NCBI GenBank assembly: GCA_030435675.1
Contig: CM059621.1
Location: 3,162,001 to 3,226,000 of the forward strand
Direction of reading: 5' to 3'
DNA: 64,000 nt
DNA from: Steinernema hermaphroditum
Lineage: Eukaryota; Nematoda; Chromadorea; Rhabditida; Steinernematidae
The notes beneath the pieces are model-generated. The model was given only the letters and a program-made list of their open reading frames with translations, did not search any database and was not told the origin of the DNA. Positions 411 to 51,217 of this stretch are shown in pieces (within the stretch, counting starts at the first letter, position 1; every line of letters starts with the position of its first letter). The position numbers and the translations under genes are program-made.

Positions 411-902
411 ACTTTACACGACTTTATTTCGTGAATCAAAGGCATTTCGCCTTGCACAACACCGAAAATAGACAAACAGAGGATGTCTGGAAGACGGCTT
501 CATCCCTGGCGCGGCGTTCATGTCGAACCGGTGGGTGGCGGAGAGCTTCATGGGGCTTCTGGGAATCGGCAAATCTTCGGATTCAGGAGCGGAACATCGT
601 TTGCGGCACAGCGCACGCTTCTGTGCTCGAATCTGATGGTCCGTCCGGGAGTTGCGTCTTCGATGGTGGTGGCGTCCTCAGAGCGTCGGCGACCTTCGGG
701 ATGACTTCTCACGTGGCCGGATTCTTGACGTCGGACATCTTGTTGTCAGCGATGGTGGGACTACGGATTCCGGGTGTCCCAATTCCCTCTGGAAGCCGGA
801 AAACTCACACATGCCACAGGGTTTGCTGTCTGACCAACGGGACCCTCAGAGAGCGACCGGAGGGTCCGACCGCTCGCCACCGCGATACGAGTGAGAACTG
901 GC
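411..902 (-). mobile_element. Retroposon family R copy 1, full-length-like, with 14-bp TSD
   Basis: The copy is flanked by a perfect 14-base direct repeat, CAGGCCACATCACG, at 397-410 and 903-916. Read on the minus strand, the element ends with a hairpin (AAGGC, loop GAAAT, GCCTT), then AAATAAA and a short GTCGTG-type tandem tail next to the left target duplication. The body is alignable by eye with copies at 10.9, 35.7, 42.3 and 47.3 kb. No conserved reading frame or transposase is visible, so it looks non-autonomous. The open frame that crosses it on the plus strand is incidental. Confidence 0.8.
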
Positions 903-929
903 CAGGCCACATCACGCTTACCCTATAGA

Positions 930-1150
930 TTACGGCTTACGGAACATGCGCCCAAATGATGGGTACCGATCCGGCTGCGTGAGAAGTCATTCTTAAGGCT
1001 CTTAAGGTCGGCGACTCACTGAGGACAGTCTACTTCGGGGACCCGAAAGCTGGAATCCGGGGGTCTAAATTCCCTCTGAAAGCTGAAGCAGTCACAAGCC
1101 ACAGGGCCGTCAGACCAACCGCACGCTCAGAGGGCGACTGAGGCACATGA
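930..1150. repeat. Degraded relative of retroposon family R
   Basis: It contains diverged phrases from the family R body (a GAAGTCATTCTTAAGG-like segment and the segment around AGTCACAAGCCACAGGG), but no clear end or target duplication. Nothing else is recognisable up to 1307. Confidence 0.45.
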
Positions 1151-1307
1151 AATCTTAAGAGCACACCGTGTTTACCTTCTATGTGCTGGATGAAAACTAT
1201 TCAAATATTGGAAGGGTCATTAATGTGTACTTGTCAGAACATTGAAGATACTTTATTATATTCAATCCGTGAAAATATCAAATGCTGGCGATTCATAAGC
1301 CGTTCCG

Positions 1308-2006
1308 CTAACGAGTACCAAACGCTCGGAAAAGACTTGAGATGACATTTAGCACAAGAAGACATTCGATAGGACCACACATGCACGAGGAGTCGCCGAA
1401 CATTCCCCTCTCGCTAGCATTCTCTATATCTGAGTATTCCTGGTCGTTAGTTTTCGAATACTGCCAGTATGAATTGAAGACGTAAAGTTCAGCCAGAAAT
1501 AGTAGAATGTGCAAAATTAGAATGACCTCGGCGATAATTCGATGTTGCAGTATCACTGAAATTCCTATGTTTTAAATATAGAGATACGTGTATTTACATT
1601 CATCGTTTATGGCCGTGTATTCCCATAGAAGTCTAGGATCGATTACAACAAACATACACATCAGAAGCATCACCACGGCGAGGATCTGAAAACTCAGCTT
1701 TCCTAATTTCTCTTATACTGGCTTGAGAATACACACCTGTGACAAAAGGCCAAACGTGAAAGCACATCCGCTTGGTTGCATCATCGCAGAGATCATCGAA
1801 ACTCCGGCCACTATCATTAAAACACCCACCGCTATAGTGAGATGTGAAGCGGCGCACGCTACAACGCCAATACAAATATTGTAAATAGCCAAAATTATTA
1901 GGAATCTCTGAAGAGGGAACATATTGTCGTTCTCTACTGTAAACCTCACCTTAACATTTACAGCAGTGAAGCTGCGTGTCTTGCGCTCCGTCTGATCGTC
2001 GTCCAT
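1308..2006 (-). CDS. Four-helix membrane protein, paralog A
   Basis: Spliced model: 2006-1950, 1907-1737, 1685-1598 and 1555-1308, about 187 residues. Exon 1 (19 codons) is a polar N-terminus beginning MDDDQTERK. Exon 2 is exactly 171 bases and carries two hydrophobic helices with the motif ILAIYNICIG. Exon 3 carries helix 3 and joins exon 4 in phase 1, where helix 4 contains HILLFLAELYV followed by SYWQYSKTND. The tail has a cluster of cysteines. The architecture (short first exon, 171-base second exon, phase 0-0-1 introns) is shared with paralogs B, C, D and F. It resembles MARVEL/tetraspan-type nematode membrane proteins in topology only, and no family is assigned. Function is unknown. The start is the only ATG giving an in-frame short first exon. 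Confidence 0.75.
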
Positions 2007-3736
2007 TGTGCTGGAAAAGGAAAATTAAGGTTATACAAAGCAATAGGAAGACAATATAACATATTGTGCGCACCGTAATAAGGAAGCACATGACAATAAC
2101 GTCTTCGACCACTGTCTGTTCGTAACAGGTTTTAGGTGATGTTTGTTAACGTTGTCATGAGGACGACTAACTTGTTTTTGGAACAACAATCGATCGGTAT
2201 CGGGAAAACTCCGCGGACTTGGGAGATTCAGAGGATTCTAAACTCTCTCAAAACGAACATAGGACCATTGGTTTGATTGATTTCTGTATACGTGGATCAC
2301 CTTAGTAAAACTAAAGGTACATGTCCACAAATTTAGGCTGCGAGCGTGCGGCAGGCTGTGCTGGATCGGTAGTTCGTCTCGCGGTTGTCGTCGATCTGCT
2401 CGCCAATTCGCAGGCAATGTCCAATTGCAAGAGGCCACGCGGGAATGGAGATCGTGTATCGGGTGTACAAGAAGTAACAGGCAGGCGTAGTACAACAGGT
2501 ATACGAATTACAGTAACATGCACGCCACACACTCGCGCGCTCACAGTATCAAGTAAATCGTTGCGAGAGTCACATTGGTGAAACACACCCATTCAGTGAG
2601 GTCGTCGCGGTCGCTCGGCGACACAGGCGAATGTATTTATTTTCTGGAACGGGCTTAACATCCAGGCTTGGCTTAGGCTTGAATTTAAGCCTATTGATTT
2701 AATACCAGCCCAAAAGGCTAGCCTTGTAGTCTTGATAGCTTCATTGATATCCTACTACTTCTGACGGTCTAAATTCTGTTTTAGAGAGTTCTGAATTCAT
2801 TTTACATGTTGCTCATCCCATTGGATACGCCACAGTGGACAACCTGATGTATCTTAGGAAATTTCAACAAGAAATGGGAGCTAACAGGAGTTAAAATAAC
2901 CGAACGAATATTTTGGAAGTTCGCGGAACTTTCCCATCCGCAGAATATTCCTATAATCTAATCAATCTGCTTGTCCAATTCTTGTTTTTTTTTGTTTTAC
3001 ATCGTGTCTACTTTTCAGTACTGGAACTGCTAATGAAGCGATTGCGGTTTCGGTTAAACTATATGCGAACCGATAACCGGTATCTCTGCTCACAATTCTT
3101 TTCAATGAGAAAAGAAATCTTATATAGAAATATGTGTGCATGTCAATGGGAATGCTTGTGAACTGTGTGTGAATTGATGTGACAGGAGCATGTTAGATGA
3201 GGTACTTTTCTCTCGATTGTAGTATGCTCAGTAGTTTGTATGAATTTTTGAACTATTGAACAATTTCACGCATGAAGTTCTTAATTCATTTATGAAATAT
3301 TAACAATAAGAAATAGACTTAAGGCAAGTTAGCCGATTTGGATTTGGCCTTAGATAATATACGATACAATCCGAGTTGTTTTCTGTATGATACATAAAGA
3401 GCTTACGTATGGACTCCATCGACCAGTATTTCATGTATTTCATCAGTATTTCATGCGTGCTCCCAGTAACGCACTGGGAGAATTCATTGCTGTAGATGAA
3501 TGGGCATAAAATTACATTTGATATAAGTAAAATAGACCTCTATTGTTTCGAGCAATTCCCCAAGCGTGGGATTTTCATAGTTAATAAAATTAGTTCAGTG
3601 CAAATCATAAGCCCATTGGATTTAAGTACTAAACGGGACATAGGCGGCCCGCATTCAAAACAACTAATTATGGTGTTGTGAACCGTGAAGTTCGCAGAAG
3701 AACGGCTTTGTTTTCCCTTTTCTCAGTCATAGTCTA
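2007..3736. other. Intergenic, no supported gene
   Basis: Overlapping frames at 2311-2592 on both strands show no splice structure or family signal. A dispersed repeat copy lies at about 2643-2700. The remainder is AT-rich, with nothing recognised. Confidence 0.5.
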
Positions 3737-4989
3737 ATGGATCAGTATTACATCACCGCCTGCTCGATTATATCTATTGGAGTGCTTGGATTGTTCGGCA
3801 ACGTTAACACAGCAATAGCCACATATCAACTTACTCCACGAGCCAAATCCAGTTTGTTTCATCTTCTTTTAATAGCAGAAAAGCATGAATCAGGTCTCCT
3901 CGTCGGTCTCGTGGCGATTGTCGACATCTTCTGCATCCTGTTTGAGTTACAAAATGCCGCTAGGATTCTTTTCGGCGTGAAAAGTTACAGGCGGGAGTGC
4001 TTTTTGGCTATTAGTCCGTATCTTGTGCTTATCAAACTGCAGACAACTCTTATGGTTGCGCTGGCTTTCGACCGCTTTTTCGCTTTTACCTTTCCTTTCA
4101 AGTAAGTGCAACTGGTTGTTCCACGATTCAGTAAATGAAACGGAGTGGAAACGCATTCTTATCTTCCTGACAACTGCTCCAAAAAGAAAGGTTTTCATTT
4201 TCTCCGTTCGTCTGCGATCTCTCGCAGCGCTCCATGCGAACGGTTGCAAGTGAATACATCTTAATATTCCTATCAGAGTCCCGTAAAATCTCTAGCAATG
4301 TTGTAAGGTTTTCTTTCAGATATGCAAAAGTAAAAAAGCTTTCCTACATCGTCGTTTTATGTGTCCCAGGCCTGCTCTCAGCTGCGGTCTTCATCTACCT
4401 TGGGGTTGAATCGCTGATCGATGAACCAATCGCGGCTTGTAATCCTCCATTGGCCTACCCGCCTTCCGTCGGACAAGCATGGTATTACTGGGCTGTCAGT
4501 TTCGACTTTGTTGCTTTGGGCTTCTCGTCAATGGCGTTTTATTTTATGCTTCGAACAAGTAAGGTCAACCTTTTTTTTCATCAGTTCGAAATGGGGCATT
4601 TCAGTGTTCAGATTCAAAAGCTCATCGACAAGGAATGCTGAATATAGCATCTTTCAAAAACAGAAGCGAATGAGTAAATCGTTGGGCGTAATGATTGTAG
4701 TTTTCCTGTCCTCAGCTGTATTATGTTACACGTTGATCTTCACAGTTCGTCACGTTCCAATGGGAAAAACTGTCGCCGATAGTCTGCAGACTCTAGCTGT
4801 AAGCGTGAACAACGAGATGTGAATAATGGCGATTTTCAGGTTATTCCTAAGATGATATCATATTCACAAGCATACTACGTTTATTTTTGGCGCAGTGAAG
4901 TGTATCGGACAGTGTTTATCAAGCATCTCGCCATAGTTCTACCGATCAAAGGCGAAACTCCAATACAGGTGTTCACCACGAGGAGCTGA
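3737..4989 (+). CDS. Srsx-type 7TM chemoreceptor
   Basis: Exons 3737-4101, 4320-4558, 4605-4798 and 4840-4989 join in frame (phases 2, 1, 0). The protein shows a first helix with GLFGNVNTA, a third helix ending in the DRY-equivalent AFDRFFAFTFPFKYAK, a helix 6 segment MSKSLGVMIVVFLSS preceded by FQKQKR, and a tail YYVYFWRSEVYRTVF. This order and these motifs are typical of the nematode Srsx (rhodopsin-like) receptors, which act in the plasma membrane of sensory neurons. The loop before helix 2 (about residues 35-52) is unusual and may hide a small unrecognised intron. An alternative acceptor before 4605 gives a stop, which fixes the chosen site. The ligand is unknown. Confidence 0.75.
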
Positions 4990-5490: not shown

Positions 5491-5519
5491 GGTGCGATTA
5501 CTTGACTCCAAATAGGAGT

Positions 5520-8152: not shown

Positions 8153-10157
8153 TTAGAGGAGACAAACCAGCTCACAAATAATAACGACTATGCGTAACAA
8201 CCACAGGAAACATGTGCAAATGCATTCGCACCGTGATGAACTTTCTTGATTCCCTCTTTCAATGTCTTCATAATTCGGATCATTAGCTTTTGCACATTTC
8301 CAATACGATCGTAGAACAGCAGTTTCCAGCAAGAATAAAAGTAAGTGTACGACAAGAGCAAGCTCTCCGTAAGCCCCATCACGCATTGATACTAAAACTC
8401 TAATAGTTAGCGGCCATTGTGTGCATACACAGATTTACTTCTGTAGTCGTTGCGTAACTGTGCGACGACAACTATGGTTACAACTAGCATGACGACGGTG
8501 AGCATCTGAAAGTGCAGAATTTCCAAAGTTCTGGTCAAGATGATGGGGACGACATACCTGTAGCATGATGGCAAGCGTGAAACTATATGCGTTTGGTTGT
8601 ATCACCACATAGATTATCATGATTCCGGCCAATATCATTAGCACACCAAGAGCAAGAGTGAATTTGTAAAAAATGCATGCCGCCGCACCAACGAAGATGT
8701 TGTAAGTAGCGAAGATGATCAATAGCGTCTGTATAAAACGATAAAATTGGGTTCGTCAATAATTTTTGTTATATTTCTGCACTTTGACGTCCCCCGCCCT
8801 TTTTTAGTATGACATTGTGTCGCAGAGCATACCGCATCACTTGAAAGAGATCTATCTAAACGTTTTTCTTTAGTCGTTAGTCGTTAAAAAAATTCTTTTT
8901 GGTTTTGTCCATTTCGAGCCCGGATGATTAGCAAGGCATATAACAAACACTAAACCACTTGCTCATAGTGGCAAGCATGCATCTTCCGAAAGGTGTTTAC
9001 AAGATGCGGTGTATGTATAAGCCAACGCGCTCCTGTTGTTAATAATGTATGCCAACTTCTATGCGATTTTTACGCTCGATCTATGGCAGAAGGAACTTCT
9101 GAACTTCGTCTGGTTTCTGTGCAAGTTCTACACTTATGTAATAATAAACCCGGCTGCGCGCGAATTCGCGCCCTCCAGGTACTAAAAGCCAATTAGAAGC
9201 TCATGCAAATGGTTGAAGTTGGGGCCAAAAAACAGTAGCCCTGCGGGCGGCAAGACACCATAGCCCTGCGGGCGGCAAGATTGGTGCTCATGCAAAGGGC
9301 TGAATTTGGGGCCAAAAAACTGTAGCCCTGCGGGCGGCAAGATTGGTACTCATGCAAAAGGCTGAATTTGGGGCCAAAAAACTGTAGCCCTGCGGGCGGC
9401 AAGACACCATAGCCTTGCGGGCGGCAAGATTGGTGCTGATGCAAAGGGCTGAATTTGGGGCCAAAAACTGTAGCCCTGCGGGCGGCGAGAAACCATAGCC
9501 CTGCGGGCGGCAAGACACCATAGCCCTGCGGGCGGCAAGATTGGCGCTCATGCAAAAAGCTGAAGTTGGGGCCTAAAACTGTAGCTCTGCGGACGGCGAG
9601 AAACCATAGCCCTGCGGGCGGCAAGACACCAATAGCCCTGCGGGCGGCAAGATTGGCGCTCATGTAAATGGCTAAAGTGGGCGAAAAAATTGTAAAGTCT
9701 CAGGAAACTCGAACCGAAAACACTGCTGGTTACAAAATAGATAAAAAATCACTCAAAAACAGCAAAAAAAAACTCAAAGCCTAGCATCACCAGAGAGATA
9801 GTGGAAGTAGAGCACTACCACCTCAACTGTCTGTGTGGCTCATTGCGAACGTTCTGTGTTTGTAAGCGGGCGGTGCCGGGTTCGGTTCCCCTCGGGGTCT
9901 TTATTTTGTGTGGGTGTTTTCGCCGTGCTCACGGAAAAACACACACACACACAAACAGACCAACGGACCCGTCGGTTCTCCATTTATATATAGGGGATAA
10001 TGTGCAAACAACTGCTCTTGCAAACGTCTGCCTGAAATGCGTAGGTCCAAGAACCCCAAGAAATGATGGACTAATCCAAAATTGCACAGTACAGTACAGA
10101 AAAACTCACCCTAGTAAGTACCGAACAAACACAACACAAAACGCTAGATTCGGGCAT
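8153..10157 (-). CDS. Four-helix membrane protein, paralog C
   Basis: Exons 10157-10110, 8728-8558, 8505-8439 and 8391-8153 give about 174 residues. Every exon length (48, 171, 67, 239) matches paralog B. Exon 1 encodes MPESSVLCCVCSVLTR; exon 2 has IIFATYNIFVG and GVLMILAGIMIIY; exon 4 has VVHLLLFLLETAVL then SYWKCAKANDPNYED. The first intron is about 1.4 kb, very long for this window, and holds a minisatellite, CA-rich DNA and a tRNA-like sequence. Without comparison with B, exon 1 would be missed. The protein is most likely a plasma or internal membrane tetraspan of unknown role. Confidence 0.78.
9225..9665 (+). repeat. GC-rich minisatellite in intron 1 of paralog C
   Basis: About a dozen copies of TAGCCCTGCGGGCGGCAAGA are separated either by short ACACCA linkers (about 25-base period) or by a longer unit containing CTCATGCAAAGGGCTGAA and TTTGGGGCC (about 62-base period), giving a higher-order arrangement. 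Several minus-strand frames stay open across it only because of the repeat; I do not consider them coding. Confidence 0.9.
9824..9905 (+). repeat. tRNA-derived SINE-like sequence in intron 1 of paralog C
   Basis: An A-box-like TGGCTCATTGCG and a B-box-like GGGTTCGGTTCCC lie about 45-50 bases apart, as in tRNA genes, followed by a CA-rich run at about 9940-9955. The T-arm pairs only partly and no acceptor stem is visible, so a SINE or tRNA relic is more likely than a tRNA gene. Confidence 0.35.
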
Positions 10158-10853
10158 TGGAGGAGAACTGACAATCAATAAGATACATTAATTTTGAGCG
10201 TTCATGCCTGGATTCGGGAAAGACAATAAGGAAATAAGAAAGACAACATGGAAAGACGCGCCTTAATAAGGAAAGAATGTCGGCGACGGGGCAACCGGCG
10301 GTGCGTCAGCAACAGGTTTCCGGTCCTCATCGCTGACTCCCGCACAAAACGATTTTTGACCGAAGACACGGTGGATCGGCCAGATCATGAAAACTGTGGG
10401 AAGAACGCAATCGCACCTGGTGACTCATTCCACCAATTGCCCAATTGGAGAAGCCGAGGAATCGCCGAAACTCTGAAGTCTGCGCCGTCAGCTGAACCAC
10501 AGATGGTTCTCCATGTCGTGGTGCAATGAGATGTGACTCTATAGTGGCGAGAGACCACCCGTTAGTTAATCCGGAGAGCGCTCGCCGTTAGCTGCCGCTC
10601 CCTATCCTATTTGAATGAACATTATAAGAAGTTTTACCTTTCAATAAGAAGACAGCAACGAGTAGTAGCGAACGCTCGCTGTTTGTTTTGTTGTTGACTG
10701 CTCTCATTCATTTGGTAACAAGTTTACAATCACGGTGCGTGACGTTATAAGTAGCTCTCCGGCAAAATTTTAACAACATTTAAGTTCAGCCTTTCAGCGG
10801 GGTATCTATCCACCTTAAATATAGCTATTTTGGGAATAACTAATAGAGCTGAT
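10158..10853. other. 5' flank of paralog C, no further gene
   Basis: Positions 10290-10405 match 7620-7760 upstream of paralog B and may hold the shared promoter. The rest (10406-10853) contains no supported gene. Confidence 0.4.
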
Positions 10854-10862
10854 CAGTGGTAC

Positions 10863-11351
10863 GAGCTCTCACTCGTGTCGCGGTGGCGAGCGGTCGGTCC
10901 CTCCGGTCGCTCTCCGAGTGTCTGGTTGGCCAAACCCCGTGGTAGTTGTGACTGTTCCGGCTTCCAGAGGGAATTGGGACACTCGGAAGCCGTAGTCCCA
11001 CCACCGATGACAACAAGATCTTCGGCGCCAGGAATCCGACGCCCGACGCTGCGTGAGAAGTCAACCCGAAGGTCGCCTACGCTCTGAGGACCAGCGCAGA
11101 CGCAACTCCCGGACCACGGACCATCAGATGCAAGCTCAGAAACGCCCGCTGTGCCGCAAACGATGTTCCGCTGGCGCAGCTGAAGATTTGACGATACCCA
11201 GATGCACCGTGAAGTGCGCAGTCTACGACCTGTTCGACATCTACGCCGCGCCAGGGATGAAGTCGTCTGCCAGACATCCTCTGTTCGTCTATTTTCGTCG
11301 TCGCGCAAGGCATAATGCCTTTGACTCGTGAAATAAAGTCATAAAGTCGAA
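10863..11351 (+). mobile_element. Retroposon family R copy 2, full-length-like, with 9-bp TSD
   Basis: It is flanked by CAGTGGTAC at 10854-10862 and 11352-11360. The 3' end carries a perfect hairpin (AAGGC, loop ATAAT, GCCTT), then GTGAAATAAAGTC and a second AAAGTC repeat. The body matches copy 1 in the opposite orientation. No coding frame is conserved. After it, up to 11665, nothing else is visible. Confidence 0.8.
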
Positions 11352-11665
11352 CAGTGGTACATCTATGCACATAAACATCAAATGTAAATCTATGTATCTA
11401 TGTCCTAAGACTTAGTAAGGGTAGTGCAACGTTGAAGTGTCGAACAGCGTTGAAGATACAAACATGTGAAAAGAACGTTCTGCATTAGGTGTCAACAATC
11501 AGTCACGCTGTTGACCTTCGTTTACGATCGCGACTTCATTAACCCAAAATACGACCTAATCGCCACGGCTGTTTGTTTTTGTGCGAAGTGTCGCGCTATC
11601 AGTGGCTTGAAATGTTATTGTATTTCTGCTCAGATCGCCATATTATGTTTCCTAGTTTTGAATTT

Positions 11666-19570: not shown

Positions 19571-20502
19571 TATGGACCAAAGAATTAGACATTAAGTGAC
19601 ATTTCAAAGGAAGAGCATGAAGAAATTTACACGGTGCGGACTTAACGCCAGCGTCAAGTGCTGAGAAACGAATGCAACTGCTATTGCTTTGTTTTCTGCA
19701 TTGATCGAAACAAGTTCTTTTGGCAGGTGGCAATGGCCGACGGTGAAAACATCTGAAGAGCAAAGGTGCTGGTGAAAGATGGCAGCACTGAGCGAGTTCC
19801 TTGAAAGGACAACACGCAAACGTGTTGCTTACACTGTACATATTTTATTTCGGTTTGATGGGACACTTGATAATTGCTCTTCTGTTTTCATGACTTTTTT
19901 CAGATAAACAAGCTGTGGTGACCACATTGCCGCATGGATGGACATCGTCCTCTGGCGTCCAGACTGACTACATGACTACATGATGTGAATATCGGTGCCG
20001 CCTTCAGAGGTAGCTCTAAAGTTATATTTTCACAAAAACGCTAGGAACGCGTTTGCGACTTATAAGCAAATAAAGGATAAGATCACTTTCTATCACGCAT
20101 CGTATTGCGGCTTTAAAAAATTGTAGATTTATAAAGTCTCTAGCAGTTGAAACATGTCCCTGAACTATTAAGAGTTTCACAACTTCAAGGCATGCCTCTC
20201 GAATGCATTCGGAACAGTCACAACTGCCACAGGGTTTGCGATCAGACGAACGACAGGCTCGGAGAGCAGCCGAGAGACCGACCGCTCGCCACGGAAACAT
20301 AAATGACTTTTCCTCGACTTTTCAGATGATCTAGAAAACAAATCTGGAATCCTGAAGGTCGCCGACGCGTCGAGGACATCACTACTGGAAAGCAGTCTAT
20401 TAGGACTTTATTAAAAGATGTAAAAGCGAAAGTACAACATGTTTACGCAAATGCATTAAGTGAAAAAATAGGCGATCACTGATCGAAAGGCTTATCATCC
20501 GT
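19571..20502. other. Intergenic with a short family R fragment
   Basis: 20185-20300 carries the 5' portion of retroposon family R in reverse orientation (GGAACAGTCACAACTGCCAC ... ACCGCTCGCCACGG). The rest shows no supported gene. Confidence 0.5.
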
Positions 20503-24794: not shown

Positions 24795-24796
24795 TA

Positions 24797-30766: not shown

Positions 30767-31812
30767 CTAAAACATCGCATATGGCATAATTTGTTGCATC
30801 GAAAAGAAGATTTTCCAAAACTGACGGATCAATAGTGCTTTATAAGATCAAAATGTTGATGGCGAGTTTCATTCATGTCGCGGTCGGTCCCTCCGGTCGC
30901 TCTCTGAGTGTCCGGTCGGTCTGATGGCTATGTATGTCAGTGAAGAAAAATATCAGTGAAGCTGTTTTTAGGTGTTTGTCCACTGGAGAATATGACAACC
31001 TTGATGCATAGCGACGAGGAGCGGTCGGACGACCTTAAGGAATGATTGATTGATGGGTGGCGAAAACGCGCTCTTGCCGTAGCAGATCCGAAAATCCTTT
31101 ATGTATGGAACACATTGAGTTCTTTATATCACCAGAGTCGACGTTTGCGTCCCCGCAGTGCTTCGACTTGAGTTGCTAGCCCAGAGCTTCCAGTAGTTGC
31201 TAGCCCAGTACAATCGCTACTCATTCGTGGATTCTTGCCATATAAGTAATTTCAATTCGCAATTTGATTTAGCATATCGCGATTTCATTAGCGCACAAAT
31301 CTGGCTGTTGTTTAGCACATTACAGATCACAGGTTTAGCGCACAAAGACAGGATAAAGCAATTGACATTTTGAACACGTACAGTACAGTGACTCGAAGTT
31401 CGTCGATACTGGCAACAACGTTACTCCAAAATAATTAACAATCGCTAGCATAATCCAGTATTTAAGCCGAAACCTAACCATACATCACCGCTTCAGTTCG
31501 TACCCCTTATTTTTCATTCCTTTGTCTTTTGTTTTTCTCTCTACCCTTTCTATTCCCACCAAATGTTTCATGATATCAATCTTCTTACTTTTGATCCGTC
31601 TAGACGAAGAATAGTTCTCATCGTGATTTTTCTAAAGGGGGCAAAGCCTCACCTATGATGTCTCACCTTTGAAATTACTTTCAGACGGTGTAGTGTGATC
31701 TTGAAATTTTCGATCTCAGGCTCGCCCAGCTGTATCCAAATCTTTATCTTACATATTTGCTCGTCGATTATATGTAATTTCTGTAGACTTTAAACGATTT
31801 CACCAAAGTCCG
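30767..31812. other. Intergenic, short family R fragment only
   Basis: About 30875-30930 matches the family R 5' region (GGTCGGTCCCTCCGGTCGCT). The remainder, including a pyrimidine-rich tract near 31500-31560, shows no gene. Confidence 0.45.
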
Positions 31813-34092: not shown

Positions 34093-34659
34093 CCTCTTCT
34101 CCAAACCAGCTACGGCTGCCGAAACAGGAAACGACTGGCCTGCAATTGAGGTGGGCAATCACATAAAAATTAAGTTACTTCGGAATTCTTCAAATCATGA
34201 CCATATGTTTTCGAGACATAGGTAATTTGACAAATTGGGTAATTTATTCTAACAGAATCAGCGTGGTATTACGGAAATACGATACATCTAAATGACACTA
34301 AAACACTGGCAAACAAGATCGCTAAAATTGTTGTTCGGGATAGTCTGACATCATTGACCATATATCCGGCAGGAAACTTCCGACTGCCGCGTCTCTGGAT
34401 TCTGCTTCCTGTTTCCATGTGGTCGTCATTAACATCAGTCCCCGTGTTCTTTTCGTAATTTCATCACAGTCACAAGCCGTTCTTGACCACTATAATAACA
34501 CACCAAGGCAAAAACAGTATACAATGAATAAGTTAACAAAAAAGTGAACACTTCACTCTTCACCCGTGCAGATATTGTTTTGTGAATGCAAGACAATGCA
34601 GCATAATATTCATGCAAATGATTTATTCATTTTCCAAATGGAAAACAAAGGTTGAACGT
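34093..34659. other. Intergenic, no gene seen
   Basis: No supported frame. The right part (from about 34590) belongs to the inverted duplication shared with 43520-43620, including an AATAAA for the glycine-rich gene. Confidence 0.4.
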
Positions 34660-35431
34660 TTAGTGACCTCCGACGACACTGCCGACAACGGGAAGACCCT
34701 TGAGGAGAGGGACGACTGAAATATGCTACTGTAGAGTGAAGAGATGGAGAGAACCTACGGAGGTTGAGGACGGTTTGGAGGAGGGAGACGACGAGGCCGA
34801 GGATTCCACCGATGGGACCAGCAGCGAGACCTCCGACGATGGGGATACCGCTGACGACTCCGGTGATAGTCTTCTCAAGACCACCAAGGAGTCCAGAAAT
34901 GTCCAGACCTCCAATGGATCCACCAGCAGATCCAGCAGCAGATCCGGCGGCGCCCTGGGCACCTCCAAGGATTCCAGTCACGGATCCGAGAGGACCAGAT
35001 CCTCCAGTGAGTCCTCCAAGAGCTCCAGTGATGTCTCCAGCAGCTCCGGAAGCGGCGTCCTTTCCTCCAGTGGCTCCTCCGACGATTCCTCCAAGTGCGT
35101 TGGTAGCAGTGTTGGTGACATCCGAGGCGACGCCGCTGACTCCAGAGGCAGCGTTTCCAGCACCTCCGATGCCTCCGAGGAGACCTCCGACAGAGTCGGT
35201 AGCACTATTGGCAGCTCCCGACGCGGCTCCAGTGGCATCAGAAGGGGCACCTCCGATACCACCAAGGCCTCCAAGCAGACCTCCGAGCGCTCCGGCGTCG
35301 CCGTTCTTTTCTCCGCTTCCATTCTTATCCTTCTTGTGGCCCTCACCCAGGTGGAGGCCGTTGTTTCCTTGGTCGTTGTCGGCCAGGGCGACGGAAAGGA
35401 GGAGCAGAGAGAAGAGAGCGATCGCCTTCAT
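34660..35431 (-). CDS. Glycine/alanine-rich secreted protein, copy 1
   Basis: Exons 35431-34759 and 34715-34660, joined in phase 1, give about 242 residues. A clear signal peptide (MKAIALFSLLLLSVALA) is followed by a charged stretch (GHKKDKNGSGEKNGD) and a long Gly/Ala/Ser region with repeated GGLLGGLGGIGG, SDVTNTATNALGG and DITGALGGLTGG motifs. The C-terminus is hydrophobic (SGIPIVGGLAAGPIGGILG, then LVPLLKGLPVVGSVVGGH). Codon use is strongly biased to C/G third positions, as in highly expressed nematode genes. A near-identical gene lies inverted at 42763-43519. Gly-rich secreted proteins of this kind occur in cuticle, glue or antimicrobial roles; I cannot choose among these. Open frames on the other strand are shadows. 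Confidence 0.8.
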
Positions 35432-35689: not shown

Positions 35690-36140
35690 GCGACACTTGG
35701 GCTTCGCACTCCCGGCCGCTCTCTGAGTGTCTGGTTGGCCAGATGGCAAACCCCGTAGCAGTTGTGACTGTTCCGGCTTCCAGAGGGAATTGGGACACTC
35801 GGAAGCCGCAGTCGCACTGCCGCTGACAACAGGATGTCCGATGCATAGGAATCGGACTGCGTGAGAAGTCATCCTGAAGGTGGCCGACGGTTTGAGGACG
35901 CTCTGAGGATCAGTGAAGACGAAGACCGGACAAGGTACCCATATCTTCGATGCAGATGCTTGCCGCGAAACTGTTTCTGTATCGTCAACATCCCGAGAAC
36001 TAGAATATCCGTCACAATTTCCGGAGTTTCGCAGATTCCCTGATGCCCCGTGAAGTGCGCCGCCAATGACCGGTTCGACGTCAACGGCACGACACAGATG
36101 AGGCCAGCTTCAAGTGATATCCTCTGTTTGTCTATCATTC
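35690..36140 (+). mobile_element. Retroposon family R copy 3, diverged 3' end
   Basis: The body matches copy 2 (TCTGAGTGTCTGGTTGGCC; GGAATTGGGACACTCGGAAG; GTGAGAAGTCATCC). The end is CCTCTGTTTGTCTAT without a clear hairpin, and no target duplication was found. It lies directly upstream of the glycine-rich gene, and the corresponding place beside copy 2 of that gene also carries family R sequence. Confidence 0.65.
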
Positions 36141-36762
36141 TGTGTTATACATGGCTTTTGTAAGATCCATTTTCGTGAGATACATGTTCCAACCGGCACA
36201 CTACTTTAAATACAAAAACGACTCTGCAACAACTCAGTTATCTTATTTGCACCTTTCTAAAAACGGAAACAAGCAACCACTCAAACCACGACAACTCCAT
36301 CACGCAGCTGTCCCAGCAAAACGTTTTAGTCCTTTCAAGCCATCTGTTTCGTTCGTAAAATGGTGTAGCTACACTTAGGCTGCGTGTGTGATTGTCATCA
36401 TAGATTTGAGCACATGACGAATGTCCGAATAATTGTCTACAGCACTCCTGTCATCAGCGCAACTACGACACGCAACCAACGTAAAAAAAGGAACTTCAGA
36501 TAATTACGCGCCAACACTAATGGCTAACTGCTAAGACAAACTTTGTATTTTACAAAATAGCACGGATACAAATAATTGTTTGGCTTTGTGTCCTTTTCTA
36601 TGTCGACCTACAATTGCTTTCACAATCTCACAAATTGTATGTACAAAACGTGGTCGGCCCTTACAGAGTCGCCTATTAGTCAAAAACAACAATTGAGCAC
36701 GAAAGCAATTGCTGTCGGACGAGTTCATTTGATATTTGTCTCTGAGGTCTTTGGTGACTTAA
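36141..36762. other. Intergenic, no gene seen
   Basis: No supported frame, splice pair or repeat boundary was found here. Confidence 0.4.
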
Positions 36763-36936: not shown

Positions 36937-38007
36937 GTAAGTTGCAACTCAGATTTGCTCTTTTATCTTCTTCCACATTCTTCGCTTATGGCAAGGGTCT
37001 GTAGATCTCATAAGCAACGGTTTTACGGAAAAGACTAAGCAAAAAACAACACAGCTATCAATTAATTCAATGTTTTTTTCCAAATTTGATTCAATTGCGT
37101 GGGTACTTTATCTTAGAGGCCTCATCTTCTTTCTCACCAACAACAACGGCTACTTACTCCTAATTGTCGTGCTTACACACGTCAAATAGTTCCGCGAGGT
37201 AAACAATACTTACTCAAACATCTTTATTGCCGTGTTGTTCCTTACTCGTGTTTTTCTTCCTGTTGTTTTTTGAATACATGCACACTATTACATTATGGTT
37301 AATTATGAAACATCGGTGAGCACATAGTGACAAACATGAATACATCCATCCCATCAGTGTGTGTGGGTCTAGAAGAGGCGCGAAAAGGGTGAATCGGGAA
37401 TCATCGCGGGTGGTGTGAAACAGCGGGCGAAGCGGAAAACCTTTATCGGAGCGGCAGGTGGAGCACACTTCAGAGTTCCGGCAAATCTTTGGCGGCTTTT
37501 TGTTTCAGGTGGGCTCTCTGGTGTTTCAATCTTTGTGAAGACCGTAGCGATCATTGCACTAAAGGCGACGACCAACAACGACCGCTCACACACCTCATTT
37601 TCGATAGAACGAACGGACGACCTGACCGATCGATACTGCCACAAATGAAGAAGCCTTTGTACATTTTTTTGCATATAAAACGGAAGATAGTAGTTAAACT
37701 TTCACAGAAAATCCAATTTTACATTGTTTACTTAAGAGATAAATACATGATTGCACCCATAGACCGTTTTTGAACAATATAGTTTTTGTGCAGCGACTTC
37801 TTTCGGAAGCTTTTTGTTGTCAGAAGCACCTTCCGTGATGCCAGCTCTAATTCGTTCTGTTCACTGTACTTCATTATTTTCACAGATTTTTGCCAAAACT
37901 GCCCATATTACAATGAACCACATACCAGAAACGTTATACGAGACAACATTTATTGTAACACATAGTGCAAATAATACTTTTCTAAAAAATTTATGTCGTC
38001 ACAAGGA

Positions 38008-42244: not shown

Positions 42245-42480
42245 GGGCTCGCATCTGCTTCGTAGAGATGATTGCGCGGTCTGGGAGTTGTGTCTTCGCT
42301 AGTCCTCAGAATGTCGGCGACCTTTAGGGTGACTTCTCACGCAGCCGGACTCCTGGAATTGGACATCTTGTTGTCAGTGGGGGTGTTCCAATTGCCTATG
42401 GGAGCCGAAACACTAACAACTGTCACATGTTTTGTTGTCAGGACGCTCCAAGAGCGGCCGAGGATCGCTCGCCACGATGA
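42245..42480 (-). mobile_element. Retroposon family R copy 4, partial
   Basis: On the minus strand it carries the family body (CTGGGAGTTGTGTCTTCG and GTGACTTCTCACGCAGCCGG on the plus strand are the complement). The hairpin end is not visible. It flanks glycine-rich copy 2, mirroring copy 3 beside glycine-rich copy 1, so it was probably carried along in the inverted duplication. Confidence 0.55.
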
Positions 42481-42762: not shown

Positions 42763-43519
42763 ATGAAGGCGATCGCTCTCTTCTCTCTGCTCCTCCTTTC
42801 CGTCGCCCTGGCCGACAACGACCAAGGAAACAACGGGCTCCACCTGGGTGAGGGCCACAAGAAGGATAAGAATGGAAGCGGAGAAAAGAACGGTGACGCC
42901 GCAGCCATTGGAGGTCTACTTGGAGGCCTTGGTGGTATCGGCGGTTCTAACGCCGCGTCGGGAGCTGCTGGTACGGCCACCGATGCCCTTGGAGGAATCC
43001 TCGGAGGTATCGGAGGTGCTGGAAACGCTGCTTCTGGAGCCAGCGGTGCTGCCTCGGATGTCACCAACACTGCTACCAACGCCCTTGGAGGAATCATCGG
43101 CGGAACCACTGGAGGAAAGGACGCCGCTTCCGGAGCTGCTGAAGATATCACTGGAGCTCTTGGAGGAATCACTGGAGGATCTGGTCCCCTCGGAGCGGTG
43201 ACTGGAATCCTGGGAGGTGCCCAGGGCGCTGCCGGATCTGCTGCTGGATCTGCTGGTGGAGCCATTGGAGGTCTCGACATCTCTGGACTTCTGGGTGATC
43301 TCGAGAAGACCGTCACCGGAGTTCTCAGCGGTATCCCCATCGTCGGAGGTATCGCCGCTGGTCCCATCGGTGGAATCCTCGGCCTCGTCATCTCCCTTCT
43401 CCAAACTGTCCTCAACCTCCGTAGGTTCTCTCCCTCTCTTCGCTCTACAGTAGCATATTTCAGTCGTCCCTCTCCTCAAGGGTCTTCCCGTCGTCGGTGG
43501 TGTCGTCGGAGGTCACTAA
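42763..43519 (+). CDS. Glycine/alanine-rich secreted protein, copy 2
   Basis: Exons 42763-43420 and 43464-43519, joined in phase 1, give about 237 residues. The signal peptide and charged region are identical to copy 1 (MKAIALFSLLLLSVALA; GHKKDKNGSGEKNGD). The Gly/Ala body differs by small indels (GGIGGSNAASGAAGTATDAL here) and scattered substitutions. The tail is LVPLLKGLPVVGGVVGGH. AATAAA occurs about 25 bases after the stop. Intron position and length are the same in both copies. It is secreted, with function unknown. Having both copies intact suggests either selection for dosage or recent duplication. Confidence 0.8.
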
Positions 43520-45323
43520 ACGTTCAACCTTTATCTTAAATTTGGAAAATAAATAAATCCCTTGCATGAATATTATGTTGCATTGTCTTGCATTCACAAA
43601 TAGTTGTACAATATGCGGTGTTGGAATTACGAGTGATATTCCATGTTTTTTGGGATCCGGGGCAATCGATGTGCCGACAACGACGATGGAAAACGACCGC
43701 TCACTGAACAGAGCAAGTGGACAAGCCATTTGCATCGCCACCGACGTAAATGAAAAACCAAATCGAAGATTAGGTAGCACTTCCGGAGTACAACATGATC
43801 GCGCAATATGTGATCTCGCCATAGCATTTAACATTTTCAATGCAGCATGGTGCAAGTTGCAAGAGCTGTACAATTTGTCGATGCACTTACATACAGCACT
43901 ACTCATGCTGGTTGTTGACGTCATTACTTAACTTATCCTCGTAGTTGCTTGGACCTGTATTTGGTGCATTTTGTCCAAAACACCACAATACGAAGAGCAC
44001 GCCATATGCGCGAAATTTGTACATTACCTGCATTGGTCAAGGTATCCTAGAAGCATATGCGGTCCGTCTGATGCTTTCCCATCAATTTACCATGATTCGC
44101 AAGATCGTCGTACTCGACCAACACCCTCACAAGGCAGCAATGAATCAAACGCGTCACAAGCCGAACGAGTTTTAGGACGACTACGCACAAAAACATCAAC
44201 AAACGAATCCGGAATTTTGATGCGTATTTGTTTTTCATGTAACATTTTTAATCTAATTCGTGTAAAGCACTCCACAAAAGATATAATGCATTTAAAGGAA
44301 TTCCGAGATGTTCGAATGAGAGATCAAAAAGTCCACTGCAGAATGCACTTTCCAACACACAACATAAAACACAATGTCCATATGCATGTACATCATTGCT
44401 GAAAACCATCTGGTTCACGAATTTGGAGTTCCGAGATGAAAACATGAAAACTTGTGGCAGGCGTTGTTGTTGGCTTGTTCACATAGAATTTGATGATCGA
44501 CGACCTTCCTGCAAAGTTGCCTCTTGGCTTCTAACCTGCGCGCCTCTTCGATCTCTGTTTGTGCAACTCGATCGTCTCCCGAATCCGCTCCCACCGTCTT
44601 CGCCAACCCACCACAGGTTGTTTTTCGCTTGCGCAATGCCTTAATGTAACAAGTTTTTCTCTTTCAGAACCGACAAAGTTTGATATCTGGCTGCTCTTCT
44701 TGGAGATGCACAATGTCGTCTGGTTATGCGAGAACGTCCTGCTTCTTTAACATGACCGCTGGAGAGCGAATCGACATCTTTGTGGTTGGTTCCTTCTTTT
44801 TTTGCTTTGAGTTCTTAAGAATGCGATTACACATTGGAGTTTTATTAATCAAATTCTCAATTGTGTTTTAATTTCTTTCGAGTCCACCTCGAAATCATGC
44901 AGCTTTCTTCAAGGTATCAAAAATGGGAACCTAAGTCAAAACCTGAGCTGACTTGACAAGTTATAGGTCGGCTGATTACTTCTATCAAGCTCCTTAGCGG
45001 GTAATTAGGTGTAATTATCGACGGGTGCCAAGTGGACAACAGCACCTGAAAGGAATGGTTAGGAAAGCAGTTAAATTCACTCAAACAGTTCGGGGTCATT
45101 TGTCAGCCGTTGGATGAGATAACTCAGGCACATAACAGCCGATCTACAACAAAAAGACATCACCCTTTGCTAAACCAGAAACTGAGAAATGTGTAGCCCT
45201 TGTGAATATCGTTATTTCAATTAAGCTTGGGATCGCTAAGGTCTTCGAATTGAGGAAACTGGTTGGTTGCAAAAGTGTACCAAAACCTAGAAAAAAAACT
45301 TGTCCTGTTAAACGTTATTTCAG
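43520..45323. other. Mostly non-coding, with a broken membrane-like segment
   Basis: 43670-43720 resembles (reversed) the 5' end of the retroposon at 50.7 kb (AACGACCGCTCACTGAAC). At about 43880-44170 a plus-strand frame reads HTALLMLVVDVIT, TAA, LILVVAWTCIWCIL and then a polar tail, as if a membrane protein were interrupted. It is not assignable. 44700-44870 may hold the missing first exon of the following receptor (NMTAGERIDIF), unproven. Confidence 0.3.
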
Positions 45324-47274: not shown

Positions 47275-47286
47275 TCACGTTTCGCT

Positions 47287-47661
47287 TTACTTACTTACTT
47301 TATTTCCCGAATCAAAGGCTTTGCGCCTTGCAGGACACCGAAAAATAGACAAACAGAGGAAGTCTCATTGCTGCAGGCTTCATCCCTGGCGTAGCGGTGG
47401 TGTCGAACCGGTCTTAGACGGCGCGCTTCACGGGGCATCTGGGAATCGGCGAAACTTCGGGAATGGCGACGGAACATCTTCTTCGCGGGCGTTTGCGGCA
47501 CAGCGGACGCTTCTGAGCTCGCATCTGTTTCGGAGAGATGAGCCCATGGTCCGGGAGTTGCGTCTTTGCTGGTGGTGGCATCCTCAGAGCGTCGGCGACC
47601 TTCGGGATGACATCTCGCGCTGCCGGATTCCTGGCGTCGGACATCTTGTTGTCAACGGTTG
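47287..47661 (-). mobile_element. Retroposon family R copy 5, 5'-truncated, with 12-bp TSD
   Basis: It is flanked by TCACGTTTCGCT at 47275-47286 and 47662-47673. On the minus strand the 3' end shows the hairpin (AAGGC, loop GCAAA, GCCTT), AAATAAA and a (GTAA)-type tandem tail. It is about 375 bases, lacking the 5' part present in copies 1 and 2. 5' truncation with intact 3' end and target duplication is the hallmark of reverse-transcribed insertion. Confidence 0.85.
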
Positions 47662-47673
47662 TCACGTTTCGCT

Positions 47674-47869
47674 ATGAAGTTTTAAAGCTTTTTTCTTCAC
47701 CAAACTCAACCATTAAATCCCTACCTTATCATTTACCCATTTCATGGAAAACACTTTAATAACACTGCAAGCACAGCACATCCGTCTAATAACGAGTAAC
47801 ACTAATAGATAAAAAAGATGGTCATTAGGGTTGTGAAAGATCCGTTCATGCAGCAAAATCGTTTATCCC
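47674..47869. other. Short 3' flank of the Srx gene
   Basis: No additional feature is visible. Confidence 0.3.
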
Positions 47870-49666
47870 TTAAGTGTGTGCATTGTGCGTGGTCGTCGGA
47901 TTTTGTGTATAGCTGGAAACGGCATTTGCACGGCCAGCCTTCCGGAGTAAGAAACGTCGACATTCCGGATTGAAGAACACCATTGACAGGCTGAACATAT
48001 TACGAGAAAAAAAAATTGAAAACCATCGTGATTAACCTACGTATTAATAATATAGATGAAAACCAATCCATCATAGCTCAGTATAATGCCAATCGTTGGC
48101 GCATTAACATCATTGTTACAAATGATTATCGCTGCCACAACAACTGTCATACAGATATCCTGAACTACTCCCTGAAAGGCCGGTACATCAGTATGTGGGT
48201 ATAGTATAGGGAACATACCAAAGTGAAGAGTCTGACGTCTCTCTTAAACTCCTTCTGATTATACGCCATGGTCGAAGTCTGAAAACAAAGTTACAACTTT
48301 TAGCATCGACGCTTACCAGTCGAATATGTGCGATCTTCGCAAAAGTGATGAGGTTGACCACCCCAGTTCCTGCACAGGCAATGGTGAAGCAGGCCTTGTA
48401 GAGAAGGTGTGCTATTTGAGAATAATCTCTGTCCAAATCTGCCGAACACTTCACAAAGACGTTTTCATGAAAGCGCGGTCCGTAACCGATATGGTTGCAT
48501 GGGAAAACTGGAAAGAACACTTTGTACTCATCAGAGATGTACGCCAGCCGACTGGAACGGATCGGCTAGCCAGTCAGGTGATCCGTCAGCCTTTGAATCA
48601 CGTAATTTGCCGGCCTTCCACTCAATGCCACTCCAACTGAATTCGTTCGCCTCTGTCCGTCTGTGTGAGAGGTCGCAGATAAAAAGAGACAAGTTCCGTC
48701 AGCCGTTTAGCGGAGAGGCACACCCACTTTCTCCGTTTATCCGTGCTCTCTCGGATCAGCTAACGGAACGGAACGGGTTTAGCCGACTCAGCCAATCATA
48801 CAGCCGAGCCGTCAAACATCTCAAGTGCACATAGATCGTACTAAACTTACTAAAATATAGGACGATGATCAGAAGAGCCTTAACGCATATGCCAACGACG
48901 ACAGCGATGCACAATTTCTTGTTGAATATCTTCCTGTAGTGGATAGGAAAGCATACAGCTATAAGACGGTTCAGCGATACAGCCCAGTGCATGACACACT
49001 GTATGTAGGTGAAGACGAAAGCGAAGTGATAAGCGAAGACGCTCAGATCGGGTGGGATGTTAGTCGTTTGACTGAATACATAAACTGCTTAGAATTCTAC
49101 GGAAAATTTTAAAACGAACTCGCTGGAGCCCTTAGTCTATACTGTAAAGTTAAGCTTTCACAATTGGATTCTGGCACTGCGCAACACTTTAAAAATTGGA
49201 ACAAAGAGAGCACAAACTGACAGAGAAAACGAACATCTCTCACATTTTTTCCTATGGTGCTCATAATAGAGGCCTTCAAAGGGGTTTGTCACGAGTAGTC
49301 TAAGGTGTGACACTTGTTTTTTGGGGAAAAGTGTTCCGATATCCCGATGAACCTGCCAAACTCACATTATGGTCAAGGGTCCTGTGTACACTCCATAAAC
49401 AAAGTCGCTTCCAATCTCTCCGACCGTCCGTGCGCCCCAAAAGAAGCCAAACGCACTGTGGAACGTCTTCACATTTTTGATGAGGTAGAAATTGAGAAGA
49501 CCGCCGAAAAAAGCCACAACACCAATCTAGACAAAGAAGAACAGCCTTCTTTTTACAGAAGCGAACAACATACTACAGTGGTAAACCAACCGAAAACTAA
49601 GTCGGTGTTTGTAGCGTAGCCTCGACCTTGGAGTTCGCTACCGTAGACAAAATTCGAAGAATTCAT
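47870..49666 (-). CDS. Srx-type 7TM chemoreceptor, intact
   Basis: Seven exons: 49666-49574, 49526-49366, 49071-48851, 48507-48317, 48278-48219, 48171-48041 and 47990-47870, with consistent phases (0, 2, 1, 0, 0, 2). The N-terminus MNSSNFVYGSELQGRG has an N-glycosylation-like site. It is followed by helix 1, HSAFGFFWGARTVGEIGSDF, then QCVMHWAVSLNRLIAVCFPI (the Srx LNRxxA motif) with HYRKIFNKK. The second loop is IFPCNHIGYGPRFHENVFVK. Helix 5 is LLYKACFTIACAGTGVVNLI, helix 6 is VVQDICMTVVVAAIII, helix 7 is LSYDGLVFIYIIN, and the segment after it is SMVFFNPECRRFLL. All Srx landmarks are present. The pseudogene at 38.0-39.2 kb is its paralog. Its first exon is also duplicated upstream at 50.4 kb. 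Confidence 0.82.
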
Positions 49667-50396
49667 TGTGTTCCTATAGCTGAGAGCTCGTCTCGAGGAA
49701 CTAAAACAAAGCTGTCGACAGCGTTGTTGAAACGAGTGGTCGTGTAACTCAACGACATATTCGTAACTTTATTTATGACAATGTTGTTAGCCATATTACG
49801 TGAAGCACACAACAAGCAATTAAACAATCAAACAGATTAAGTCGTAATTTAATCGGCAATGGCGGCAGCCAGGCTTTCAAGAAACTGAGTCTCTAGAAGA
49901 AGAAAACAAGTCGGTAACAACATCTATCAAAGGTAGACAGAAAGAACGAAAAGAGAAAGACAATCAATGTTACGGAAAGGAGTTGAAATATGGCAAAATC
50001 CTCTAAAGTACACGGTCATAGTGATAATACGTTTTCAGCTTCGACAAAGTGGAACGCTCATCGTAAAGGATGATAAGAAATCGCCCAAAGCAAGAACTGA
50101 ACATTGCTGGCGAACGCAAAGTAAAGTTTCCTCTCCGTTCACAAAATTCCTTACCTTCTTGTTGTAGAGATTACACTCAGTACCGTCCCAAAGTTAGCTT
50201 GTCAAAAAACGTTGTAACTTTCAAAACTACACCTTAATGCGTAGTATGAACATTACTTCGTGAAGGCACGTGACCGAAGTTTCCGCGTTTTCTACGAAGT
50301 AAGCCAGTCTCAGCATTTGGTGCGTCTAGACAAAGACGTCTAGACCAATCTAGACAAAGAAGAACAGCCTTCTTTTTACAGAAGCGAACAACATAC

Positions 50397-50489
50397 TACA
50401 GTGGTAAACCAACCGAAAACTAAGTCGGTGTTTGTAGCGTAGCCTCGACCTTGGAGTTCGCTACCGTAGACAAAATTCGAAGAATTCAT
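50397..50489 (-). pseudogene. Orphan duplicate of Srx exon 1
   Basis: It is the same 31-codon ATG exon as 49574-49666 (SSNFVYGSELQGRG region) and the same donor, but no following exon lies in the correct place except by splicing over the original first exon. It could act as an alternative first exon and promoter, or simply be dead. Confidence 0.65.
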
Positions 50490-50668
50490 TGTGTTCCTAT
50501 AGCTGAGAGCTCATCTAGAGGAACTAAAACAAAGCTGTCGACAGCGTTGTTGAAACGAGCGTGGTTGTGTGACTCAACGACATATTCGTAACTTTATTTA
50601 TGACAATGTTGTTAGCCATATTACGTGAAGCACACAACAAGCAATTAAACAATCAAACAGATTAAGTC

Positions 50669-51217
50669 TGAGCCGATTGAGTTGAGTGAGCGGTCGTTCT
50701 CGGCCGTCGTTGTTGGCGCAATGATCGCCCCGGCTCCCAGAAGGCCTGGAATACCAGGGAGCCGTAGTTCCACCGTCTTGCCAAGAAGCCCGTCACTGCC
50801 GCCCGACTCCACTCGCGCCGCCAGAGAAGCCGAAGAACCGCCACAATTCCGAAGTCCGCGTCGCCAGCTGCCCTGATGGTTCCCGGTTCGCCTGTTATGC
50901 TCCGACAACGCGTTTCGCCTGCATGCCTGTTCTTCACTCGTGCCGCCCGCGGAAGCCGCCGAAGAAGCTCCTCAACTCCGACGTCCGCGCCGCCACCTGA
51001 GCTGAAGATGGGTTTGCTGTGCTCCACCGTCTCCGGAATCAGCTCTTCGCCTCTCTGATGCCCGCGCACACTAATGGGATCGCCGTGCTCTACTCTGATG
51101 TGCCGAAGTCAGAAGAAGACCGGCGACTACGGAGTGATAATGTGTTTCTTGTGAATATATATAACGTCTCGCAAGGCGTAAGCCTTTGATACGAGAAATA
51201 AACTCGTGAAACTCGTG
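50669..51217 (+). mobile_element. Retroposon family R, divergent subfamily, with 14-bp TSD
   Basis: It is flanked by AAACAGATTAAGTC at 50655-50668 and 51218-51231. The uninterrupted sequence is present once in the sister duplicate (around 49828-49841), giving a direct empty-site comparison. The 3' end has the family hairpin (AAGGC, GTAA loop, GCCTT), GAAATAAA and a tandem ACTCGTGAA tail. The body differs from copies 1-5 but shares layout words (GGGAGCCGTAGTTCCACC versus GGAAGCCGTAGTCCCACC). It is GC-rich, with no conserved coding frame. Confidence 0.88.

Follow-up and report, generated by a model that had tools for sequence, protein, structure and literature searches.

We report that four repeated elements in a 64,000-nucleotide stretch of the Steinernema hermaphroditum genome (90.65 Mb; GenBank assembly GCA_030435675.1, contig CM059621.1, positions 3,162,001 to 3,226,000; below, the window) very probably belong to two families of short interspersed elements (SINEs) that arose from long interspersed elements (LINEs) of the RTE type and are copied in trans by the protein of a resident RTE LINE. 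Members of both families appear to consist of a LINE 5´ untranslated region (UTR) that runs through the start-codon site, a non-coding body, and a 3´ end that would fold into a LINE-type RNA structure. The original prediction, made from the letters of the window, had described one family of non-autonomous retroposons copied by a CR1/L2/RTE-like LINE that recognizes a 3´ hairpin. Such a retroposon fits our results, from which we infer hairpin recognition, and the LINE type can be narrowed to RTE; two points are absent from that account, the LINE-derived head and a second, outer 3´ stem.

The four copies lie where they had been placed, flanked by exact target duplications of 14, 9, 12, and 14 bases, and all four have AAATAAA and the AAGGC/GCCTT stem, closed by a loop that varies (GAAAT, ATAAT, GCAAA, GTAA; Table 1). 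A single family holds for the two ends, which are common to both families found here, but not for what lies between: copies 1 to 3 have one common body and copy 4 has a different one, such that BLAST finds only the 3´ ~50 bp shared between them, to which an alignment adds a 5´ hairpin. Similarly, copy 3 is 5´-truncated as had been proposed, but so is copy 4, since full-length relatives in the second family begin ~62 bp upstream of its start. An inverted twin of copy 4 (window 50669-51217), 100% identical, lies 31 kb away (G000:C1:3244097-3244645) and also has an identical 3´ flank, thus reflecting segmental duplication and not a second insertion.

Both families are numerous. The 3´-end pattern GCAAGGCN{3,9}GCCTTTGAN{3,8}GAAATAAA has 466 exact matches in the genome (238 + 228), against 0 + 0 for the reversed pattern, and is therefore not due to chance. 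For copy 2, the 40 candidates scored among 1309 gave 40 long matches, itself included, with 90-100% identity; for copy 4, the 40 scored among 1872 likewise gave 40, at 97-100%. The mean difference from the majority sequence is 2.4% among 29 full-length first-family copies, and 19 second-family copies (20 were fetched, one of which is without AAATAAA) are on average 98.8% alike, though these samples are best matches and so understate the age of the families. A common 5´ end is evident: 39 of the 44 copies that best match copies 1 or 2, a sample biased toward good matches, begin within 12 nt of it, as do 15/20 of those among them that were picked by the hairpin alone.

The insertion sites carry a partly RTE-like signature. 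After 14 of 68 non-redundant hits were dropped for a missing 3´ end, AAATAAA, or flank, an exact target duplication of at least 9 bases was found in 31 of 54 copies, compared with 0.3% of mismatched flank pairs. No second-family copy (0/19) had a duplication when the 5´ end of that family was wrongly placed; read to the true 5´ end, 5/6 copies have one of at least 9 bases, as does locus L040, and null pairs reach 8 at most. In the 31 copies with duplications, 66 of the 124 flank bases from -12 to -9 are T (260 control offsets: mean 34.4, maximum 52), and T occupies -1 in 19 (mean 8.6, maximum 16). The duplication most often opens with G (14/31), not A or T, though its boundary can be ambiguous where tail and target have bases in common.

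The tails of copies 1 to 4 start with GTCGTGTAAAGT, GTCATAAAGTCGAA, GTAAGTAAGTAA, and CTCGTGAAACTCGTG, respectively. The proposal that the tandem unit differs per copy is partly borne out by copy-specific variants, but genome-wide the unit is typical of the subfamily (GTCGTGAAA, CTCGTAAA, ATCGTGAAA). Units can be alike inside one copy and different between copies, for example GTCAA four times in L033 and GTTGTGAA three times in L028, a pattern that fits slippage at insertion.

Candidate partners are abundant in the same genome. From 388 reverse transcriptase candidates, of which 150 were scored, we fetched 68 LINE 3´ ends, and 60 of these fall into eight types, A-H (57 by script and three, L078, L081, and L106, by eye); of the other eight, L119 reads N and seven are without a recognizable end. 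All eight types share one architecture: an outer stem and an inner hairpin, a short joint that leads to A(A)ATAAA, and last a tandem tail, itself short and typical of the type (A, TTCGTAAA; B, TCGTAAA; C, TCTGTAAA; D, TGTTA; E, CTTGAAA; H, ACAGTTA). The TCGTAAA tail core is common to the SINEs and LINE B. In most types A(A)ATAAA overlaps the stop codon or lies within ~30 bases of it. A very short 3´ UTR of short AT-rich repeats is given as an RTE trait in the part of the literature consulted (PMC1291365), which the resident LINEs match except for type G, with its longer 3´ UTR of ~350 nt. Five LINEs have a single open reading frame (ORF) of 959-966 aa with 60-69% mutual identity, and both ORFs scanned contain an APE-type endonuclease (PF03372) and RVT_1 (PF00078); among named proteins, the nearest are Steinernema entries annotated as hypothetical. 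On a separate contig, C8 (120,849 bases), an RTE-type LINE is arrayed in tandem, with 22 reverse transcriptase hits, often 4.27 kb apart, and open frames mostly of 835-992 aa; the one stretch fetched from it (L119) reads N.

The 3´ fold that SINEs and LINEs have in common lies upstream of AATAAA and comprises a 4-5 bp outer stem, the inner hairpin, and a short joint that in most cases reads GAT followed by one further base. We assessed 11 pairs in an unedited MAFFT alignment of 18 LINE and 4 SINE ends against 500 shuffles, keeping type C, which is off register by one, and type F, which is misaligned, so that both mostly count as failures. Pairing was found in 90.7% of cells compared with 61.3% after shuffling (0/500 as high) and at most 43% in slid frames, and the covariation score was 0.764 compared with 0.231 (again 0/500). 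Of the five covariation measures used, two, both-side changes and further pair types, were not clearly beyond the shuffles. Unaided, RNAalifold predicts 9/11 of the pairs, and 45 of the 57 classified LINE ends were positive in a strict two-stem scan. Stem sequences differ between LINE types with pairing kept, and all five outer pairs are kept in 36 of 40 distinct SINE ends. Four-base SINE loops are GNRA in 9/9 cases, and by eye in 32/34 among the listed 3´-pattern matches (the exceptions being AAAT and GTTA), but five-base loops, mostly ATAAT, are commoner, so that GNRA is not general.

The head of the SINEs also comes from a LINE. Copy 4 is 86% identical to the LINE B 5´ UTR over 58 nt and copy 2 is 90% identical to that of LINE A over 40 nt, and the 5´ stem CGGCTTCC/GGAAGCCG is common to a SINE and the living LINE B. 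This stem is part of an 8-bp hairpin that adjoins the LINE start codon, with the loop AGAAG..UGGAAC.. complementary to GUUCCA/GUCCCA just beyond the stem, across a joint of 2-4 nt. The hairpin (at least 7 of 8 pairs) is present in 31 of 51 LINE loci scanned, followed in 31/31 by the loop partner TYCCA; of the other 20, L175 has 6/8 pairs and 19 are without the hairpin. Of these 19, L134 and L180 are LINE type F, L170 and L171 stop short of the hairpin or within it, and the rest are without a recognized LINE 5´ end. In sets with one or few representatives per LINE type, L175 excluded, 98.4% of cells are paired in 16 sequences (79.9% when shuffled, at most 44% when slid) and 97.9% in a thinned set of 12 (79.1% when shuffled), although the stem sequence itself varies between LINE types. 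Where LINE B reads GTATGTT the SINE reads GTAGT; the AUG is thus lost, yet the hairpin persists and its loop is still complementary to the bases that follow. In the loop helix, both bases of one pair differ in LINE E and in the first SINE family; four of six pairs are invariant, and the 3´ side is also coding in the LINEs. In LINE type G, ACG (L135) or AAG (L181) stands in place of AUG, and the hairpin is kept.

The loop can pair with the sequence at the AUG, whether within a pseudoknot, as a switch, or between two molecules. In our judgment a true H-type pseudoknot is doubtful, as a joint of 2-4 nt looks too short for an 8-bp stem, which leaves a switch or pairing between molecules no less likely than a pseudoknot. 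Neither an HDV-like nor another known ribozyme, nor a small-RNA gene that could have provided the head, was matched by Rfam in the window (gathering thresholds) or in L001 and L059 (E up to 1), and ARAGORN found no tRNA in the SINE copies; these searches thus give no support for a tRNA-, 5S-, or 7SL-headed SINE. Between head and tail, BLAST against five LINEs gives no significant match, and the body appears, from its reading frames, to be non-coding. It contains a 113-aa open stretch that we considered as a SINE-encoded protein and rejected, given frame-breaking indels between subfamilies (8, 9, 11, 12-13, and 3 nt) and longer antisense frames; changes by codon position in this stretch (42/54/72) have a weak third-position bias.

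We suggest the following mechanism. Once translated from a LINE, the RTE protein would bind SINE RNA in trans via its folded 3´ end (the outer stem, the inner hairpin with a loop of 4-5 bases, the joint, and AATAAA) and nick a T-rich target. Reverse transcription would begin inside the short tail, where slippage would generate tandem repeats, and insertion would produce target duplications of about 9-16 bp. The loss of 5´ sequence in some copies is probably ordinary incomplete reverse transcription. More tentatively, and with somewhat less than even confidence, we propose that the RTE protein recognizes an RNA fold at both ends: the two-stem 3´ structure would start reverse transcription, and the start-codon hairpin would be a 5´ element needed for retrotransposition itself, because SINEs without AUG keep it with compensatory changes. 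One speculation is that the 5´ hairpin aids completion of the insertion. A 5´ UTR has been proposed to promote top-strand cleavage for R2Bm, in a source whose authors, in the part consulted, doubt this for R2Tg (PMC12222951).

Several observations weigh against a resident RTE LINE that copies these SINEs through a recognized fold. The partner LINEs are putative members of the RTE clade, placed there by their sequence features. No exact target duplication of at least 9 bases was found in 23/54 SINE copies, and 12/57 classified LINE ends fail the strict two-stem scan. Although 10 of the 11 pairs in the 3´ fold are changed on both sides in some sequence, 51/500 shuffles equal that, and 29/500 reach the observed number of further pair types. 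Outer-stem evidence within the SINEs alone is modest, at 4.58 of 5 pairs compared with 4.16 after shuffling, a value that equals the shuffle maximum (12 distinct arm combinations). For the 5´ fold, shuffles reach the observed both-side changes in 16/500 cases (16 sequences) and 12/500 (12 sequences), and the further pair types in 171/500 and 95/500, and LINE type F (L134, L180) does not have the hairpin in the same form. Contrary to pure fold recognition, changes in the stem sequence of UnaL2 cut activity sharply, according to the portion of that study consulted (PMC4176376).

A further difficulty is the donor of the 3´ end. The original prediction had called for a LINE ending in the same hairpin and tail, and here RTE-like LINEs share the two-stem fold, A(A)ATAAA, and the tandem tail, but neither the 68 LINE ends nor two genome pattern searches yielded one that ends in the AAGGC stem. 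The first search gave 5 hits compared with 3 for the control (one overlaps a SINE, one a known 3´ hairpin, and none of the five lies, by eye, near a listed reverse transcriptase hit), and the second gave 0. An AAGGC palindrome occurs in 3/68 LINE loci (L080, L081, L125), always downstream of the LINE stop, and that in L080 is an antisense SINE. The 3´ hairpins listed for contig C1, which are part of the 466, were also compared by eye with the reverse transcriptase list, with no LINE ending in an AAGGC hairpin. What the SINEs share with these LINEs is thus the fold and not the stem sequence. It could be argued instead that the SINEs were copied by a LINE with the exact AAGGC hairpin that is extinct or was not sampled, be it of the RTE type or another (for example CR1/L2), and that the shared fold marks common descent only. 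The AAGGC stem is indeed common to both SINE families and in none of the LINE ends examined, which came from 150/388 scored candidates. We consider this unlikely, given the match of the tail core and the 5´ stem to the living LINE B and the likeness within the second family, which speaks for recent copying even if the 19 copies, as best matches, are a biased sample.

The remaining alternatives concern what the ends are and how the copies arose. AATAAA is the usual poly(A) signal, and there are A-runs in the tails of LINE L098 and SINE L053, so the fold with AATAAA could be a signal for processing of the transcript 3´ end rather than a binding site for reverse transcriptase. We regard this as improbable: the stems precede AATAAA on its 5´ side, most new copies have tandem units rather than poly(A) at their end, and in other stringent LINEs the LINE protein binds the 3´ stem-loop, as described in the part of the study consulted (Hayashi 2014, PMC4176376). 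It is very unlikely that the copies are LINEs with internal deletions that arose independently, with no SINE lineage, a scenario to which the LINE-like character of both ends would lend itself, since the 29 full-length first-family copies share a body and a common 5´ end, and this body is without a significant match to the five LINEs beyond the head. Least credible of all is a DNA transposon or miniature inverted-repeat transposable element, which the original prediction had also dismissed. Target duplications and short length would suit such an element, but there is no terminal inverted repeat (the best 12-mer match is 7, reached by 462/500 shuffles), the duplications vary in length, and there are 5´ truncation and a tandem tail.

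SINEs with an RTE head and tail are already known in mammals; our data add a pair from a nematode in which the folds of both ends are conserved. The comparisons that follow are with the portions of the cited papers that treat each element. In Bov-A2, RTESINE1, MAR4, and RTE1-N1_LA, the 5´ end of BovB/RTE serves as the head and the tail is that of the same LINE (Ohshima 2013, PMC3747384). The Steinernema SINEs likewise combine a head taken from an RTE LINE 5´ end with a tail that an RTE LINE also has. They reside in a nematode, however, their head contains a covarying hairpin at the site of the LINE start codon, and the sequence of their 3´ stems is not that of the LINE ends examined, although the fold is kept. 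The Sauria SINE and Bov-B LINE also form an RTE partnership with tandem 3´ repeats, tail units that differ between LINE and SINE, a T-stretch ~10 nt upstream of the duplication, and a T adjoining it (PMC13295347). However, the head of the Sauria SINE is listed as tRNA (PMC3747384), and the first duplicated base is T there and mostly G in our SINEs (14/31); RTE has a Tn-TA insertion signature, with A or T as the first duplicated base for the reptile elements (PMC13295347).

Folded 3´ ends are better documented in other clades. Maize and sorghum SINEs with the tails of L1-clade LINEs resemble ours in having a 3´ hairpin with compensatory stem changes between LINEs and SINEs, but belong to the L1 clade and to plants and have one hairpin (PMC3747384). 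ZfL2-1, ZfL2-2, and UnaL2 have a 3´ stem-loop that is required, and the ZfL2-1/2 version tolerates exchange of its stem as long as the pairing and the loop are preserved; unlike the Steinernema fold, which is known from sequence only, these L2-clade examples come with experiments (PMC4176376). In the open literature searched, in the parts consulted, we found no RTE element described as having a covarying RNA fold at its 3´ or 5´ end.

RTE LINEs are transferred between species more frequently than LINEs of the L1 clade, and how they choose their RNA is poorly known. One small genome with eight LINE 3´-end types and two SINE families, in which stems vary and pairing is kept, offers ready-made compensatory mutants, and SINEs that keep the start-codon hairpin without AUG make it easier to tell a function in retrotransposition from a function in translation. 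If folds at both ends are recognized, these SINEs would be nature's minimal RTE template. A 2026 paper notes, in the part consulted, that assays are still needed for the RTE integration machinery and the role of the 3´ repeats (PMC13295347).

Table 1. SINE copies, their parts, and SINE fragments in the window (positions in window coordinates)
Feature	Position	Strand	Details
SINE copy 1	411..902	-	full-length, ~490-bp family
Target duplication left of copy 1	397..410		14 bases, CAGGCCACATCACG
Target duplication right of copy 1	903..916		14 bases
Two-stem 3´ fold of copy 1	429..459	-	TTGTG/CACGA and AAGGC/GCCTT, loop GAAAT
AAATAAA of copy 1	423..429	-
Tail of copy 1	411..422	-
LINE-type 5´ hairpin and loop partner of copy 1	756..798	-	hairpin 764-798, partner 756-761; one stem pair broken
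SINE copy 2	10863..11351	+	full-length, ~490-bp family; head homologous to LINE 5´ UTR
Target duplication left of copy 2	10854..10862		9 bases, CAGTGGTAC
Target duplication right of copy 2	11352..11360		9 bases
LINE-type 5´ hairpin and loop partner of copy 2	10958..11000	+	hairpin 10958-10992, partner 10995-11000; LINE start codon lost
Two-stem 3´ fold of copy 2	11301..11331	+	TCGCG/CGTGA and AAGGC/GCCTT, loop ATAAT
AAATAAA of copy 2	11331..11337	+
Tail of copy 2	11338..11351	+
SINE copy 3	47287..47661	-	5´-truncated, without head and 5´ hairpin
Target duplication left of copy 3	47275..47286		12 bases, TCACGTTTCGCT
Target duplication right of copy 3	47662..47673		12 bases
Two-stem 3´ fold of copy 3	47305..47335	-	TCCTG/CGGGA and AAGGC/GCCTT, loop GCAAA
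AAATAAA of copy 3	47299..47305	-
Tail of copy 3	47287..47298	-
SINE copy 4	50669..51217	+	second family (full length ~610 bp), 5´-truncated by ~62 bp
Target duplication left of copy 4	50655..50668		14 bases, AAACAGATTAAGTC
Target duplication right of copy 4	51218..51231		14 bases
LINE-type 5´ hairpin and loop partner of copy 4	50731..50772	+	hairpin 50731-50764, partner 50767-50772
Two-stem 3´ fold of copy 4	51167..51196	+	TCTCG/CGAGA and AAGGC/GCCTT, loop GTAA
AAATAAA of copy 4	51196..51202	+
Tail of copy 4	51203..51217	+
Decayed older first-family copy	35711..36145	+	74% to a relative
First-family fragment	42247..42385	-
Short fragments of both SINE families	1052-1138, 10448-10509, 20210-20292, 30880-30927, 37512-37597, 43634-43709

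The window contains other repeated features. Two ORFs of 424 aa form a near-identical inverted pair (57055-58329 on the minus strand and 62033-63307 on the plus strand), and a second inverted pair (34610-35431, minus, and 42763-43539, plus) consists of Gly/Ala-rich ORFs that look secreted; a tRNA-Ser called by ARAGORN inside the ORF at 34610-35431 is probably false. Tandem repeats with units of the TAGCCCTGCGGGCGGCAAGA type occupy 9222-9668, and similar units are found in the flank of L136.

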